This document shows positions 8,249-29,592 of a stretch of DNA of 41,831 nt, in pieces; the first letter of the stretch is position 1; every line of letters starts with the position of its first letter. Made by a program: the position numbers and the translations under genes. The notes beneath the pieces are model-generated. The model saw nothing but the letters and a program-made list of their open reading frames with translations. It had not been told where the DNA came from and did not search any database. The stretch is from assembly GCA_024399155.1 (NCBI GenBank), contig JAKSHX010000006.1, positions 1 through 41,831 on the forward strand, given 5' to 3'. This DNA is from an archaeon. GTDB taxonomy: Archaea; Thermoplasmatota; Thermoplasmata; Methanomassiliicoccales; Methanomethylophilaceae.

Positions 8249-9214
8249 TCACCTGTCTCGTGCAACTATATAATGAGCAAGCGAGATTAGAGAGCTTTTG
8301 TAGACAGATTTTGTTATCGCTACCAAATTTGTAATAGCTTTTTCTACCATATTTTCTGCTATCTGCCTACACTGTTCAATTGCATCGGTCTTTTTGATAA
8401 GTTTAAGAGCGCTGTCAACATCTTTTTCTTCGCATGGATTTTTCATGAAAGTTTCAGCAATCTTAGAACCATATTTTTGGTCTTTCATCGCTAGAATAAT
8501 AGGTAATGTAGGTTTTCCTTCTAAAAAATCAATACCAATTTTCTTACCCATGCTAGTAGAATTGCCTGTAATATCTAATACGTCATCTATTATTTGAAAA
8601 GCCATTCCGATGCCGATTGCAAATTTACCAATTGCATTGATAATTTTGTGATTCGCTCCTGACATGTAGGCACCCGATTTTGCGCAAGCCTCGATTAATT
8701 TGGCAGTTTTGCCTTCAATGATCTCGTAATAATTTTCTTCATTGACATCTTTAGAATGCTCAAAATCTTTCTGAACAAACTCCCCTTCACTCATATGGGA
8801 GGCGGCTTCAACGATAATATTGACTATTTCCAAACTGGTATTTCCCAGAATCTGAAATCCTTTGGCCATCATGTAATCGCCAGCAACAATGGCCTTACTG
8901 ACAGTATATTCTTTATGTAGCGTTCTTCTTCCGCGTCTAATTTCACTTTTGTCATTAATGTCATCATGAATTAAAGAAGCAGAATGAACTATTTCGAAGG
9001 CAGAGCCTATTTTAACAGCCTTACAAGGTTCATTACCTCCACACGCTAGGTATGAAAGTATGCATATAGCTGGCCTTATTCTCTTTCCTTTGGATGTTAC
9101 AACATAAGTACACATTTCGTTAAGTTCTTTGTTATTGGAACGAACCACATTAATAATTTCATTCTCAACATCAGCGAGTTCCTTCTGAATTGAACTGCAC
9201 CAGTCCTCGAACAT
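8249..9214 (-). CDS. Geranylgeranyl diphosphate synthase (trans-polyprenyl synthase)
   Basis: 321 residues. The first aspartate-rich motif is HDDIND (after HSASLI) and the second is IIDDVLDITG, both characteristic of class I trans-prenyl diphosphate synthases; GKRIRP near the N-terminus binds isopentenyl diphosphate. Chain length (C15/C20) is not certain by eye, but linkage to a geranylgeranyl reductase favours GGPP for archaeal lipids. An AAGGG ribosome binding site precedes the ATG, and a TATA-like AAGTATAAAAG lies about 20-27 bases upstream. Confidence 0.88.
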   Translation of the reverse strand: MFEDWCSSIQKELADVENEIINVVRSNNKELNEMCTYVVTSKGKRIRPAICILSYLACGGNEPCKAVKIGSAFEIVHSASLIHDDINDKSEIRRGRRTLHKEYTVSKAIVAGDYMMAKGFQILGNTSLEIVNIIVEAASHMSEGEFVQKDFEHSKDVNEENYYEIIEGKTAKLIEACAKSGAYMSGANHKIINAIGKFAIGIGMAFQIIDDVLDITGNSTSMGKKIGIDFLEGKPTLPIILAMKDQKYGSKIAETFMKNPCEEKDVDSALKLIKKTDAIEQCRQIAENMVEKAITNLVAITKSVYKSSLISLAHYIVARDR

Positions 9215-9295
9215 CTGCCCTTCTATGATGCTTTTATACTTAATTCTTGTGACATTTCCACCCTGGATGCTGTAGCCTATTAAAAATTAAGTAAC

Positions 9296-9316
9296 AGAAA
9301 AATTTTGTGTAAAAAG
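9296..9316 (-). terminator. Probable T-rich terminator after the fpo operon
   Basis: Read on the minus strand just after the fpoN stop, two T tracts (CTTTTT and ATTTTTC) follow each other. Archaeal RNA polymerase ends transcription at such runs. The gap between fpoN and the GGPP synthase promoter is short, which also fits a terminator. Confidence 0.4.
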
Positions 9317-24232: not shown

Positions 24233-25117
24233 TTAGCACCCTAATTGGTGCTCTACCATTGTAACCATGTTATTCATAAGCATATAGATCGTCATTGGTC
24301 CTACCCCGCCGGGAACGGGAGTAAGCATAGATGCCTTTTTTATTACGCTTTCTACTTCAACATCTCCCACTAACTTGGTACCCTTAGAACTTGATGGGTC
24401 GCTTATTCTATTGATTCCTACATCAATTACAATGGCTCCTTCTTTTATCATGTCCGCAGTAATTGACCCGGGCTTGCCTAATGAAGATACTAAAATGTCG
24501 GCTTGATTAGTAATATCGGCAAGGTTTTTTGTCATTGAATGAACTACTGTGACAGTAGAGTCTGCACCCTTACCTTCCTGCAGGAGCATTGCAGCTAAAG
24601 GCTTGCCTACAATATTACTCCTTCCTAGGATGACTACGTGCTTACTTGCCGTTTCAACACCTGAACGTATAAGCAACTGTTGAATTCCAGCAGGTGTTGC
24701 TGGGAGAATAATTGGATTACCGATAAGTATACGTCCAACATTATGTGGGTGGAGGCAGTCTACATCTTTCATCGGATCGATAGCGTTGGTGATCTTATTT
24801 TCATTTATATGCTTAGGAAGAGGTAATTGAATTAATATTCCCTGTATACTAGGGTCCGCATTAAGTTCATCGATCTTTTTCAGAAGCATTTCCTCTGTGG
24901 TATCTTCCGGAAGTCTAAAGGTCATAGAACCAATCCCGAGTTCTACACACTTTTTATATTTCATTTTGGCGTAGACTTCGGAAGCTGGGTCGTTACCTAA
25001 GAGTATAAACGCGAGGCATAGAGAACATCCCCTTACTTTTAATGCGGCAATCCTTTCTTTAATCCCTCCATAAAGTTCAGACGCGATCTTGTTACCGTCA
25101 ATTAATTCACAACTCAT
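24233..25117 (-). CDS. folD: Methylenetetrahydrofolate dehydrogenase/cyclohydrolase FolD
   Basis: 294 residues. YAKMKYKKCVELGI includes the catalytic lysine, GILIQLPLP is the folate site, and ILGRSNIVGKPLA is the NADP site. It interconverts methylene- and formyl-tetrahydrofolate for biosynthesis. Folate use fits Methanomassiliicoccales, which lack the tetrahydromethanopterin methyl branch. ATG at 25117 is preferred over TTG at 25126. Confidence 0.93.
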   Translation of the reverse strand: MSCELIDGNKIASELYGGIKERIAALKVRGCSLCLAFILLGNDPASEVYAKMKYKKCVELGIGSMTFRLPEDTTEEMLLKKIDELNADPSIQGILIQLPLPKHINENKITNAIDPMKDVDCLHPHNVGRILIGNPIILPATPAGIQQLLIRSGVETASKHVVILGRSNIVGKPLAAMLLQEGKGADSTVTVVHSMTKNLADITNQADILVSSLGKPGSITADMIKEGAIVIDVGINRISDPSSSKGTKLVGDVEVESVIKKASMLTPVPGGVGPMTIYMLMNNMVTMVEHQLGC

Positions 25118-25142
25118 CAGAACCAACTGTTAATTTGGTTAC

Positions 25143-25150: not shown

Positions 25151-25395
25151 ATCAATTGCAACATGTGTAGTGTGCTTATTGGTGTCCTTAACATAAAATA
25201 CTATATCGACAGTGGATCTGTTATCCCAGGAGATTTGAACGCATACATCCCTGCTTATAGCGATTAAAAATTTTTATAAAGAAGAATCATGCGTTGATTT
25301 GGGCGTTATAGCTGTGGATATGCGACGGACGTGATTTTATTTCTAGGAGTCTCCAACGCTACGAAAGTTAAATATTGGCTGACGATCAAATTTAA

Positions 25396-25684
25396 TCATA
25401 TCACGGTATTAGCTGAAATCTTGGTTTGTGACAACTTTAATTCTAATATATCGTTAATGATAGAGCTTATTTCCTTCCTGGTGAGCAAGACCGTACATCT
25501 TCTTTTTTTACCTTTCACGGACTCGGCTGGCTGAAAATATAATGTTGGTTTTTGATTCAATTTTTGTATCTGTCTTCTTCATAACTATACCGGGCATTAA
25601 CACTTTACCGCACACAAGCATGTTGAATCTGTCTATCGTGATATATGATTTGATTGCATTAACACGATTAACCTTTTCTAACAC
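25396..25684 (-). pseudogene. Possible decayed gene, two frames, unknown
   Basis: A GTG-started frame of 58 codons (25684 to 25508) contains AIKSYITIDRFNMLVCGKVL and MPGIVMKKTDTKIES, then stops. A second frame shifted by one position continues across a run of seven A with KKRRCTVLL and ISSIINDILELKLSQTKI to a TGA at 25398-25396. The two parts read like one protein interrupted by a frameshift. No family is recognised. Sequencing error in the A run, real decay, or chance are all possible. Confidence 0.35.
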
Positions 25685-25772: not shown

Positions 25773-26993
25773 TCACTTTTCAAGTGCCATACGAAGTTCC
25801 TCATGATCCCCGGCGTACTCTTTTATGTCTATATTTTTACATGCCGCATCAACCGCCTGACATATTGCTATCGCACCTTTACGTATGCCTTCAGGATGAT
25901 CGGCAACACTCTCATTTGCCTGTATTTGCACATTAAATCCGGACTCTGCAATAATATTAGAAATCATGTCTGGATAGATTCCTCCGGAACATACTGGCAT
26001 AATTTCCTTATATGGCACTGTAATGTTATCGATACATGCATCAAGAAGCCTACGATCTTCTATACTTTCATACATCTTCCCCATTCTCAATGTACCAACA
26101 TACAATGTATCTCCTCCACACATACGAACAATTTTTGAAATTGGAAGCATAGATATTCCGTGGAACGGATCTCTGGTTATTGCGCCATGCATCGTTCTGC
26201 GAACGTGAATTGGTATCTTGATTGATGGATCTTCCACAAGAGATTGAACTGCTGCAAAACCGCATGAGGTAACATCTACCATAAGTTCTTTTGCCCCCCA
26301 ACTTTGAACCTTTTCTGCGATCTCGATAATTTTATCTCCAGATGTACTGACATTAATCGCGTGTATCATCAAATGGCCTTCAGTCTTTAACTTATCAAGT
26401 GCCTCTGCAACCGCAATTGTACGGTCCTCGATAGGGCAAAATTTTTGATTTGAAAGTATTTCGCTATCTTTCCCATTTGTAATTCCTCCCATTCCCGCCT
26501 CAAAAATGTAATCTGCAAATTTCTTAGGTGATAGCCCAATTTTAGGTTTTACTATCGTTCCTATCAAAGGTTTTTTAGGGCGATCAAGTGCTTTTCTCAT
26601 TCCATTAATGCCAAATTTTGGTCCATTAAACTCTTTTAATACACATTTTGGAAAAAACACATCTTCTAATCTAATCTTACTTATAGATTCTAAATCAAAC
26701 AGGTTTCCTGCAATAACACTAAGAATTTGTGGTACTGCATCGACATCTAAACTAAAATTATCAACGGGATATGCGATACGGATGTTCTTGTCGCTAATTT
26801 TCAACACGCGCGCACTGTATTTATCAAATATGTCATCAGTAATGGCACTGGCATTTGTCCATGTTCCGGTAGATTGTTCTGCTGCTATAGATTCTGCAGC
26901 AACGTTCATGGGGAGATCGGTAGTAACACGGTAATCACAAATGATAAAAGCATCTTGATCGATATTTTCTTCAATGTGCATGTAAGAATGCAT
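25773..26993 (-). CDS. RuBisCO large-subunit homologue with altered active site (RuBisCO-like protein)
   Basis: 406 residues with the complete RuBisCO fold order. Preserved by manual alignment (spinach numbers in brackets): E39 [60], T44 and W45 [65, 66], N97 [123], K149 [175], K151 [177], K175 [201], E178 [204], R266 [295], H269 [298], K306 [334] and S336-G338 [379-381]. Altered: S177 [D203, a magnesium ligand], R265 [H294], Y298 [H327], and E361/S362 [G403/G404, phosphate loop]. Archaeal form III enzymes keep all of these. The pattern argues for a form IV-like or otherwise non-carboxylating protein rather than the AMP pathway enzyme. A decayed frame ends five bases upstream. ATG at 26981 is an alternative start. 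The fold is certain; the reaction is unknown. Confidence 0.85.
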   Translation of the reverse strand: MHSYMHIEENIDQDAFIICDYRVTTDLPMNVAAESIAAEQSTGTWTNASAITDDIFDKYSARVLKISDKNIRIAYPVDNFSLDVDAVPQILSVIAGNLFDLESISKIRLEDVFFPKCVLKEFNGPKFGINGMRKALDRPKKPLIGTIVKPKIGLSPKKFADYIFEAGMGGITNGKDSEILSNQKFCPIEDRTIAVAEALDKLKTEGHLMIHAINVSTSGDKIIEIAEKVQSWGAKELMVDVTSCGFAAVQSLVEDPSIKIPIHVRRTMHGAITRDPFHGISMLPISKIVRMCGGDTLYVGTLRMGKMYESIEDRRLLDACIDNITVPYKEIMPVCSGGIYPDMISNIIAESGFNVQIQANESVADHPEGIRKGAIAICQAVDAACKNIDIKEYAGDHEELRMALEK

Positions 26994-26998
26994 TTAGC

Positions 26999-27880
26999 TC
27001 ACCTTCCGAAACATTTTGTCTCTAATTTGCTTTGTAATTGTACTGTAGCATTGATATATCTCGCTGGCGTGCTATCAAATATCAGACTTAACATTTTTGC
27101 AGGGTCGGGAATTTTTCCTTTCACAATAATCTCACCGATATTGCGTTCTTAGACTGTAGCCTTTTTACCAAATCAGTGTCATGGGTGAAAACTTGTGAGT
27201 CTCGGTCAGACATAAAACTGTACTTTGAATTCATTAGATACAAGTTCCAATTGTAATGTTCCCACTTCGTTTATAAAGTCTCCATAAGATGTTACAGTGT
27301 CTGCTCTAACAATACTTCATTAACATTTTTCATTACAGACGCAACAGCGATGTCAACAGTGAGTTTAGTATCGATTCTTTGTTTAACTGAATCATTTACT
27401 GTTAAAATTCCCTGTCTCCGAGGTCACGATTCTGTCGCGTGAGGTTTAATGTTTCTTGCCATACTTGAAGGTGTTCATGATAACTTCAATAGCTGTGCTG
27501 TTTGCAGTGAGTCATATTATATTACTATCACCAACATATTCATACTGGTCTCCCACAATGCATCTAACGGCGTCTCAGAGCTTTTAATAAATATTGTCAT
27601 GTTTTCTTGAGTAGGAGATATCGTATCGCTACGTTTTTTGGTTCTTGACTCTCTAACCGTTGCGTGTATTCTGTTCCGAAGAGATACCGCAGTGCGTCTG
27701 GAATTTAGAAGAACTCTCTTTGATCTCTTTAAATTGGTAAGAAATTGTTCTTATTATTGTCATTATGATTACCAACAAAATCCAAAAGTGCCATCATTAC
27801 TGCCCTGACAATTTTTTTAGTACCGCGAATAGTCACATTTGCTATGGGTGTTGTCGTTTGTTCTATACTCGTGAGTGATC
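26999..27880 (-). pseudogene. Probable decayed gene of about 290 codons, unknown
   Basis: Successive minus-strand pieces read like one protein broken by stops and frame changes. From upstream they contain IEQTTTPIANVTIRGTKKIV followed by RAVMMALLDFVG, then VGDQYEYVGDSNII, a TGA, LTANSTAIEVIMNTFKYGKK, VNDSVKQRIDTKLTVDIAVA followed by SVMKNVNEVLLE, SYGDFINEVGTLQLELVS, and finally GKIPDPAKMLSLIF and ARYINATVQLQSKLETKCFG before TGA. That TGA lies five bases before the RuBisCO-like ATG, as if the two once formed an operon. I cannot name the family. Chance open runs may account for some pieces. Confidence 0.45.
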
Positions 27881-28095: not shown

Positions 28096-29592
28096 ATGAT
28101 TGATAGGAAGAGAATGAAAATTAGGGGTATAAAGCATACACCTAAAAGGTTGGAGAGCGACATTCTCGAAAAATCAAAAAATCTCTGGGAAAATCCTTCG
28201 CTAATCAGGCCAAAATGCGCTGGAAAATGTTTCTTGTGCTCATTTGATAAAACATTTTCTTCCATCAATAAAATTAGATTGTTGAAAAAAGATTCTGACG
28301 CTTTAGTTAAGCTTGCTTCCAGTGGAAACGATGATATTTTTAAGGCTTATTGTGCAACAGTTTCACTTTATGCTGCAGGTAGTGTTCCATATCTAGCGAC
28401 AACCAAATTGGCTGGTGAAGAAGTATCCTTTGCACAAAGGGGATCAGTCGAAAAAGACAAGTTGATTGGTGCGCTTTACTACGATGATCCGAAGATTAGA
28501 TTACTGTTATTCAATACTATAGCTAAAAAAAGGAGTCTTCATATCTATTCATTCGGTGAAGATCTCGTATGCGCAAAAAAGCCGAATATGCCTGTGGATT
28601 ACGTATATGATACATTTTGGGACACCCCTTATGAATTTCCTGGCGATGGTTTACGATGTGAACATGAATCGGATGGAGCACTCATCATTAAAATTTTATC
28701 AGCTAAAGAAAGAATTCGAATTTGTAATAACTGTGCTAAGGAGATATCTACCTTGCAACATATTATCGCGAGAATGGTCGCGGTGAATGTATTAGATGAC
28801 TTTGAAGTGTATGTGGAACACAAGTATCACAACGAAAATGAGGATGGAATTGTAAAAATTGATGAAAAAACTCTAAAAGATTACTCTTTAGGTCTAATAA
28901 ACGATGTAAGCCTCTTAAATTTGATTATCAAGGATAAAATCAGTACACTAAAAAACAGCAATATCCTAACATATATTATTGGATCTAAAAATTACGGTTC
29001 TAAGACTGAAGAGTTCTTAAATAATCTTAAAGGGTCGGAAATCGACATCAAGGCTATTTCAGAATATCTCAGAAGAAATCCGAGATCGGTCATCATACGT
29101 GATGAGAGGGCTACCGAAGCTTTGAGAGAAATATGGTCTGATTATAGAGGAGTTATTACAGCATTAACATCTGAGAAAATTGCAAATTTATTTGGAGATG
29201 TCTCTAAACTTAATCCATCACAAATCTTGAAAGATGCGTACAGTAAATACATCTCATTTGATGTAGTGTCACGGCTACCTGTGTTTAAACAACCTGGTGT
29301 TATGACAAAATACGCCGATAATTATACAAAAGCAGCAAAGGTCGGAGGGCCTGACATGCTTAGACAAAGCATTCTCGAAATTGCACCTAGAGACTCTAAG
29401 ACCCGCTCGTTATCCATAGCGTTTACCATTGCTATGGGTATCGAACCGATTATTAAATGCACAGAAAAAGAAATGGACTTCGCGGTCTACCTTCTTCCTT
29501 TTGTGAAACAGGTCATAGAATCTGATGGTGAAAAATATCGTGAAAATATGAATGTCCTCCTAACAGCTACTGGGAGTTGCGAAAGTGTTTAA
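28096..29592 (+). CDS. Unknown 498-residue protein with two cysteine clusters
   Basis: The family is not recognised. A lysine- and arginine-rich N-terminus is followed by CAGKCFLC (residues about 41-48), a CxxxCxxC pattern. A second set, CEH and later CNNC, lies near residues 195-215. Both could bind zinc or an Fe-S cluster; the first resembles a radical SAM motif, but no SAM-binding barrel features follow. The C-terminal half is mostly helical (VIIRDERATEALREIWSDYR). No membrane segment or P-loop is seen. It stands alone, convergent with taw2 and overlapping it by four bases. Codon use and length leave no doubt that it is a real gene. Confidence 0.7.
   Translation: MIDRKRMKIRGIKHTPKRLESDILEKSKNLWENPSLIRPKCAGKCFLCSFDKTFSSINKIRLLKKDSDALVKLASSGNDDIFKAYCATVSLYAAGSVPYLATTKLAGEEVSFAQRGSVEKDKLIGALYYDDPKIRLLLFNTIAKKRSLHIYSFGEDLVCAKKPNMPVDYVYDTFWDTPYEFPGDGLRCEHESDGALIIKILSAKERIRICNNCAKEISTLQHIIARMVAVNVLDDFEVYVEHKYHNENEDGIVKIDEKTLKDYSLGLINDVSLLNLIIKDKISTLKNSNILTYIIGSKNYGSKTEEFLNNLKGSEIDIKAISEYLRRNPRSVIIRDERATEALREIWSDYRGVITALTSEKIANLFGDVSKLNPSQILKDAYSKYISFDVVSRLPVFKQPGVMTKYADNYTKAAKVGGPDMLRQSILEIAPRDSKTRSLSIAFTIAMGIEPIIKCTEKEMDFAVYLLPFVKQVIESDGEKYRENMNVLLTATGSCESV

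Follow-up and report, generated by a model that had tools for sequence, protein, structure and literature searches.

In the archaeal AMP pathway, AMP phosphorylase makes ribose-1,5-bisphosphate, an isomerase converts this product into ribulose-1,5-bisphosphate (RuBP), and RuBisCO turns RuBP and CO2 into two molecules of 3-phosphoglycerate. RuBisCO-like proteins of form IV are old families that keep K201, D203 and E204, and the chemistry established for the MtnW enolase of methionine salvage likewise depends on the magnesium ligand D203. The three-gene AMP or NMP shunt is known from Thermococcus (PMC9700705), and form III RuBisCO has already been noted in Methanomassiliicoccales (PMC5399129, PMC9287336). 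A RuBisCO of the phosphoribulokinase-dependent reductive hexulose-phosphate pathway has also been described (PMC5241800). In Undinarchaeales, the group-III-like RuBisCO has undergone two motif changes (PMC7414124), and in haloarchaea a standalone ribose-1,5-bisphosphate isomerase, unaccompanied by RuBisCO, takes part in a new pathway that has been demonstrated (PMC9700705).

The window, i.e. the whole stretch of 41,831 nucleotides analysed here, is contig 133 of a metagenome-assembled genome (G000) of the order Methanomassiliicoccales, family Methanomethylophilaceae. The genome is small (1.29 Mb), AT-rich, 96.6% complete and distributed over 176 contigs. Some translations of the window, which we take to be F420H2-dehydrogenase subunits and methanogenesis marker 11, agree with a methanogen. 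G000 contains a single RuBisCO homologue, whose gene runs from an ATG at 26993 to a stop codon at 25775-25773 on the minus strand. The gene, its altered codons and the remains of its neighbours are located as follows.

27041..27869, minus strand: remnant of a ribose-1,5-bisphosphate isomerase gene (TIGR00511/e2b2), directly upstream of the RuBisCO gene
25773..26993, minus strand: RuBisCO large-chain homologue of the form III lineage, 406 aa, single open frame
26463..26465, minus strand: codon of D203S (own residue 177), D203 of RuBisCO being a magnesium ligand
26199..26201, minus strand: codon of H294R (own residue 265)
26100..26102, minus strand: codon of H327Y (own residue 298)
25908..25916, minus strand: codons of Asn-Glu-Ser in place of G402-G404 of the P1 phosphate loop (own residues 360-362)
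25346..25545, minus strand: scrap of an AMP phosphorylase gene downstream of the RuBisCO gene, about 200 bp of the ancestral 1.5 kb, with pieces in different frames

The 406-aa protein matches the Pfam families RuBisCO_large (171 bits) and RuBisCO_large_N (80 bits), and its best match among solved structures is archaeal RuBisCO (6hun, 1geh) over nearly the full length. Together with the membership in the order, these matches support the view of the earlier note that a RuBisCO homologue resides in a methanogen-like genome. Residues were called from an alignment to the RuBisCO of Thermococcus kodakarensis and to relatives, which is gap-free near the altered sites and unambiguous. Five of the 19 catalytic or substrate-binding residues are altered, namely D203S, H294R, H327Y, G403E and G404S (codons of the last two at 25913-25908), and G402 is changed to Asn as well. 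Retained are E60, T65, W66, N123, K175, K177, K201 and E204, and further downstream R295, H298, K334, S379, G380 and G381. The earlier note had read Ser203, Arg294, Tyr327, Glu403 and Ser404 from the sequence, and each of these calls was reproduced in the alignment; the persistence of K175, K201, E204 and the S379 loop, also claimed there, was borne out. The Mg2+ site is devoid of Asp203, the catalytic His294 is an arginine and the P2-phosphate residue His327 a tyrosine, and acidic or bulky residues take the place of the P1-phosphate glycines. Judged from these residues, carboxylation by the window RuBisCO appears very unlikely, because the magnesium ligand and a catalytic histidine are lost and phosphate-binding residues are damaged at both ends. 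The same reasoning supports the earlier note, which had called carboxylation unlikely. From known RuBisCO chemistry, any protein produced from the gene would be expected to catalyse neither carboxylation nor enolisation. A structure prediction based on three sequences reached a mean pLDDT of 36 and was discarded.

A family search found a RuBisCO gene in 129 of 147 Methanomassiliicoccales genomes. In 120 full-length relatives, every one of the 19 textbook residues is preserved, save for Gly404, which is alanine in three, and none of these 120 sequences has the residue pattern of G000. The Gly404-to-Ala exchange is the sole catalytic-site change in the three genomes concerned (L045, L094 and L108, all of genus g11). 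L125 from genome G009, in which S379-G381 are seemingly altered, was excluded since the match to the family model splits at this point, probably owing to a frameshift. The window RuBisCO is 69% identical to that of the congener G027 and 65-67% identical to those of the family members G113, G112 and G117. In a tree calculated with IQ-TREE that included other archaeal RuBisCOs, the window gene stands beside the intact G027 RuBisCO inside the clade of the order, and the five-member clade formed by the window gene, G027 and three relatives received 100% bootstrap support. Phylogeny was among the checks proposed in the earlier note, and it places the window RuBisCO within form III. Because the change is confined to G000 and the gene nests with the intact G027 enzyme, the window RuBisCO is recently derived from an ordinary enzyme and does not belong to an old RuBisCO-like family. 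The form III model TIGR03326 does not contribute to this assignment. The window RuBisCO scores 304 bits and falls short of the 497-bit cut-off, and intact RuBisCOs of the order (L034, L032, L002, L011 and L049; 407-418 aa) reach only 367-413 bits. Since these five relatives sit in AMP-pathway operons and fail as well, the cut-off is non-discriminating here, and automatic naming may miss the RuBisCOs of this order as type III.

The ancestral operon comprises, in this order, the genes for ribose-1,5-bisphosphate isomerase, RuBisCO and AMP phosphorylase, adjacent and in the same direction. Across the order, 128 of 147 genomes have an isomerase above the cut-off and 124 of 147 an AMP phosphorylase. 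In the window, the isomerase is reduced to three fragments in three different frames with at least seven in-frame stops and at least two frameshifts. Nevertheless, its identity is clear: the remnant was matched in tblastn by the isomerases of all 21 relatives (21/21), with E values down to 1e-40, and its best single piece scored 86 bits as compared to a maximum of 23.5 bits in shuffled sequence. The AMP phosphorylase scrap was matched by the proteins of 19 of 20 relatives at E < 1e-3, the best match reaching about 35 bits versus 23.1 in shuffles. No AMP phosphorylase gene was found elsewhere in G000; among 74 high-quality genomes of the order, it alone lacks this gene. A search of G000 for a working isomerase was also negative, the sole intact gene of the family being a paralogue with 205 bits at a cut-off of 314. 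This paralogue (L136, 902-2499; G000:C144) is an intact MtnA-like gene that adjoins a class II aldolase-family gene; an apparent stop in it proved not to be real, the frame encoding 332 aa. The pair possibly serves in methylthioadenosine salvage or a DHAP-shunt. Phosphoribulokinase (PF00485) is absent from G000, and therefore the other known route to RuBP is missing, too. For the same reason, a role of the window RuBisCO in the phosphoribulokinase-dependent reductive hexulose-phosphate pathway was rejected.

Comparison with congeners places this ruin between two further states of the same locus. In G027 (53% GC in the region), an intact operon lies between a homologue of the 498-residue gene and folD. 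In G029 (41% GC), the flanks and their order are the same (transketolase to trm5, folD to radical SAM), but only about 620 bp separate trm5 from folD, both the operon and the gene for 498 residues having been deleted without replacement.

L143 (G029:C1:132000-151000), 8678-9301: syntenic deletion locus of G029, between trm5 and folD

Both congeners with short genomes, G028 and G029, are without all three pathway genes, G028 being only 79% complete. With its GC content of 39%, the window is an intermediate between the intact G027 and the deleted G029. The 498-aa open frame is present in the window at 28096-29592, divergent from the dead operon; it adjoins the operon in relatives and was lost together with it in G029.

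To what extent the RuBisCO gene itself has decayed was assessed at residues that are invariant in the order. Protein rates, losses of invariant residues and a neutral simulation were used for this purpose instead of synonymous sites, which are saturated between species, with one genome available per species. Relative to a set of 19 relatives, the window RuBisCO has lost 13% of such residues and the dead isomerase 48%, compared with 1.5-4% in kptA, mmp11, uppS and trm5 against the same set. Elevated losses were also observed for transaldolase (9%) and for folD (15%). The folD gene (window 24233-25126) is located beside the dead operon, has an intact frame and is presumably functional despite a loss similar to that of RuBisCO. 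Therefore, the invariant-residue measure alone is no proof of release from selection. In comparison with 120 relatives, 15 of 98 invariant residues are lost in the window RuBisCO. Glycines have been replaced as well, namely in G85D, G100D, G303R and G365D. In a near-invariant leave-one-out test, the usual loss in a single relative was 0-2 residues and the highest was 4, setting aside one sequence with a frameshift and a second copy of the window locus in that run. Consistent with accelerated change, the protein branch-length ratio between G000 and G027 is 4.2 for RuBisCO as opposed to 1.3-2.4 for five neighbours.

Selection on the fold without selection on the chemistry would be expected to enrich changes at catalytic sites. 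The losses were not focused in this way (4/18 catalytic versus 11/80 other sites; Fisher p = 0.47), and their spread over conserved positions fits diffuse erosion better than a re-tooling of the active site. By the mean BLOSUM62 score of the changes at invariant sites, RuBisCO was indistinguishable from both folD and the dead isomerase. The reading frame is undisrupted over its 406 codons. A neutral simulation that started from the relatives' genes and was run until as many invariant residues had been lost as in the window gene predicted 2.4-3.3 stops and a probability of 0.03-0.08 for no stop, frameshifts not counted. The open frame is a mild argument for some remaining constraint. Surviving open frames are, at the same time, precisely the cases to which a scan for open frames is drawn. 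On the invariant-site clock (13% versus 48%), the neutral exposure of RuBisCO amounts to approximately a quarter of that of the isomerase. Because RuBisCO has decayed less, constraint on it was probably lifted later or less completely than on the isomerase. We refer to it as a decaying gene, which is not yet a formal pseudogene as its frame is open.

Most probably, the window RuBisCO is a catalytically dead relic of the AMP pathway, which its lineage is in the course of shedding. Its ancestor would have been an ordinary archaeal form III RuBisCO working in the AMP (pentose bisphosphate) pathway, which this member of the Methanomethylophilaceae, with its small and AT-rich genome, has presumably abandoned. 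The genes for isomerase and AMP phosphorylase have decayed in place, where their remnants still lie, and RuBisCO would have been left without substrate. As the cell would make no RuBP, selection for retaining the enzyme should be gone or weak. Damaging substitutions have piled up at conserved sites, catalytic ones included, in a frame that has so far been spared a stop or frameshift. Counting against decay are the open frame of 406 codons and the survival of most structural and many catalytic residues.

Alternatively, the protein may have been recruited after the death of the pathway, either for a non-catalytic (structural, regulatory or ligand-binding) task or for a metal-poor new chemistry, so that selection holds the frame and leaves the former catalytic residues at liberty to change. 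The contrast with the flanking isomerase, broken by at least two frameshifts and seven stops and with about four times the neutral exposure of RuBisCO as estimated from invariant sites, speaks in favour of recruitment, as do the low simulated probability of escaping a stop and a purine-rich stretch resembling a ribosome-binding site ahead of the RuBisCO ATG. Several observations speak against recruitment. The changes show no concentration at active-site positions and recur in no relative, RuBisCO stands alone between two remnants without a new operon partner, and the congener G029 has lost the whole locus without replacement. Moreover, a repurposed RuBisCO-like clade of the same phylum looks different and shows coherent changes across genera and keeps the metal ligands. 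Recruitment thus appears unlikely. The narrower proposal that a second non-carboxylating role (e.g. structural or ligand-binding) alone keeps the frame while the ancestral active site erodes is a little less likely still. Errors of sequencing or assembly, to which both the substitutions and the broken neighbours might be ascribed in a metagenome-assembled genome of 176 contigs, are a very improbable source of the pattern because random errors would not respect genes. Heavy decay affects exactly the two partner genes, the genes flanking the operon are intact, the radical substitutions in RuBisCO come without any stop, and a congener has lost the operon altogether.

Even less can be said for two readings that would leave the protein an active enzyme. 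A working RuBisCO-like enolase of methionine salvage acting on 2,3-diketo-5-methylthiopentyl-1-phosphate would share the fold, and G000 carries the intact MtnA-like isomerase beside the class II aldolase-family gene. Yet acireductone dioxygenase (PF03079) was not found in G000, the scores remain below the cut-offs of the NCBIfam models (209 of 409 bits for NF007095 and 173 of 514 bits for TIGR03332), Ser replaces the magnesium ligand D203, and the tree places the protein inside form III, which renders this assignment very improbable. Least plausible of all, and barely credible, is a still working RuBisCO with an altered active site and an unrecognised source of RuBP. It could draw on the retained K201, E204, K175, K334 and loop residues, but it would have to operate without the magnesium ligand, H294, H327 and the P1 phosphate loop in a cell that has neither isomerase nor AMP phosphorylase nor phosphoribulokinase. 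The suggestion in the earlier note that the true reaction may be new is not supported: the damage is restricted to one species, it has no significant focus on the active site, and both operon partners are remnants. That one genome lacks catalytic residues is not in itself evidence of a new enzyme.

With the decaying leftover as the preferred reading, the loss of an archaeal AMP-pathway RuBisCO has been caught within one methanogen genus, in which the same locus occurs intact, half-decayed and deleted. That the two supply genes have decayed further than RuBisCO gives a hint of the sequence in which they were lost. In practical terms, genome annotation will name the window protein RuBisCO although the pathway is gone.

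A RuBisCO-like lineage in other Thermoplasmatota, which emerged from a phylum-wide search, illustrates how a different outcome looks. It consists of L172 (1304-2656), L173, L174, L175 (925-2235) and L176, spans at least four genera and forms one clade with 100% support. Its members have in common K177C and exchanges of R295 to Met or Ser, H298 to Ala or Ser and H327 to Val, Ile or Leu, and they keep K201, D203 and E204. The two members tested had their top scores with methionine-salvage (MtnW) enolase models, below cut-off. The L172 gene directly follows an FGGY (xylulokinase-like) kinase gene and is succeeded by a small gene and an MFS-like transporter gene, so that a sugar-phosphate role is possible. 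To judge by sequence, this is the look of a repurposed RuBisCO-like lineage, and the window gene is unlike it.

Among described systems, the form III RuBisCO TK2290 of Thermococcus kodakarensis (PMC9700705) resembles the window protein in its operon position and its full-length two-domain architecture. The window gene is a direct descendant of this AMP-pathway type, nested in the Methanomassiliicoccales clade, and differs from it by the replacement of D203, H294, H327 and G402-G404 and by the death of both partner genes. Within its own order it stands apart from the 120 relatives, which keep the active site (apart from the three with Ala404). With form IV proteins such as the MtnW enolase and OiaX it shares the RuBisCO fold and changed active-site residues; in contrast to these, it represents a one-species change inside form III in which D203 is lost. 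The Undinarchaeales RuBisCO (PMC7414124) is likewise of form III type, has changed motif residues and is of questionable activity, but that order mostly still encodes the nucleoside pathway, whereas the pathway genes in the window are pseudogenes. In haloarchaea, as in the window, the three-gene pathway is coming apart. There the isomerase persists without RuBisCO; here it is the RuBisCO frame that has outlasted the isomerase, with no sign of a new pathway.
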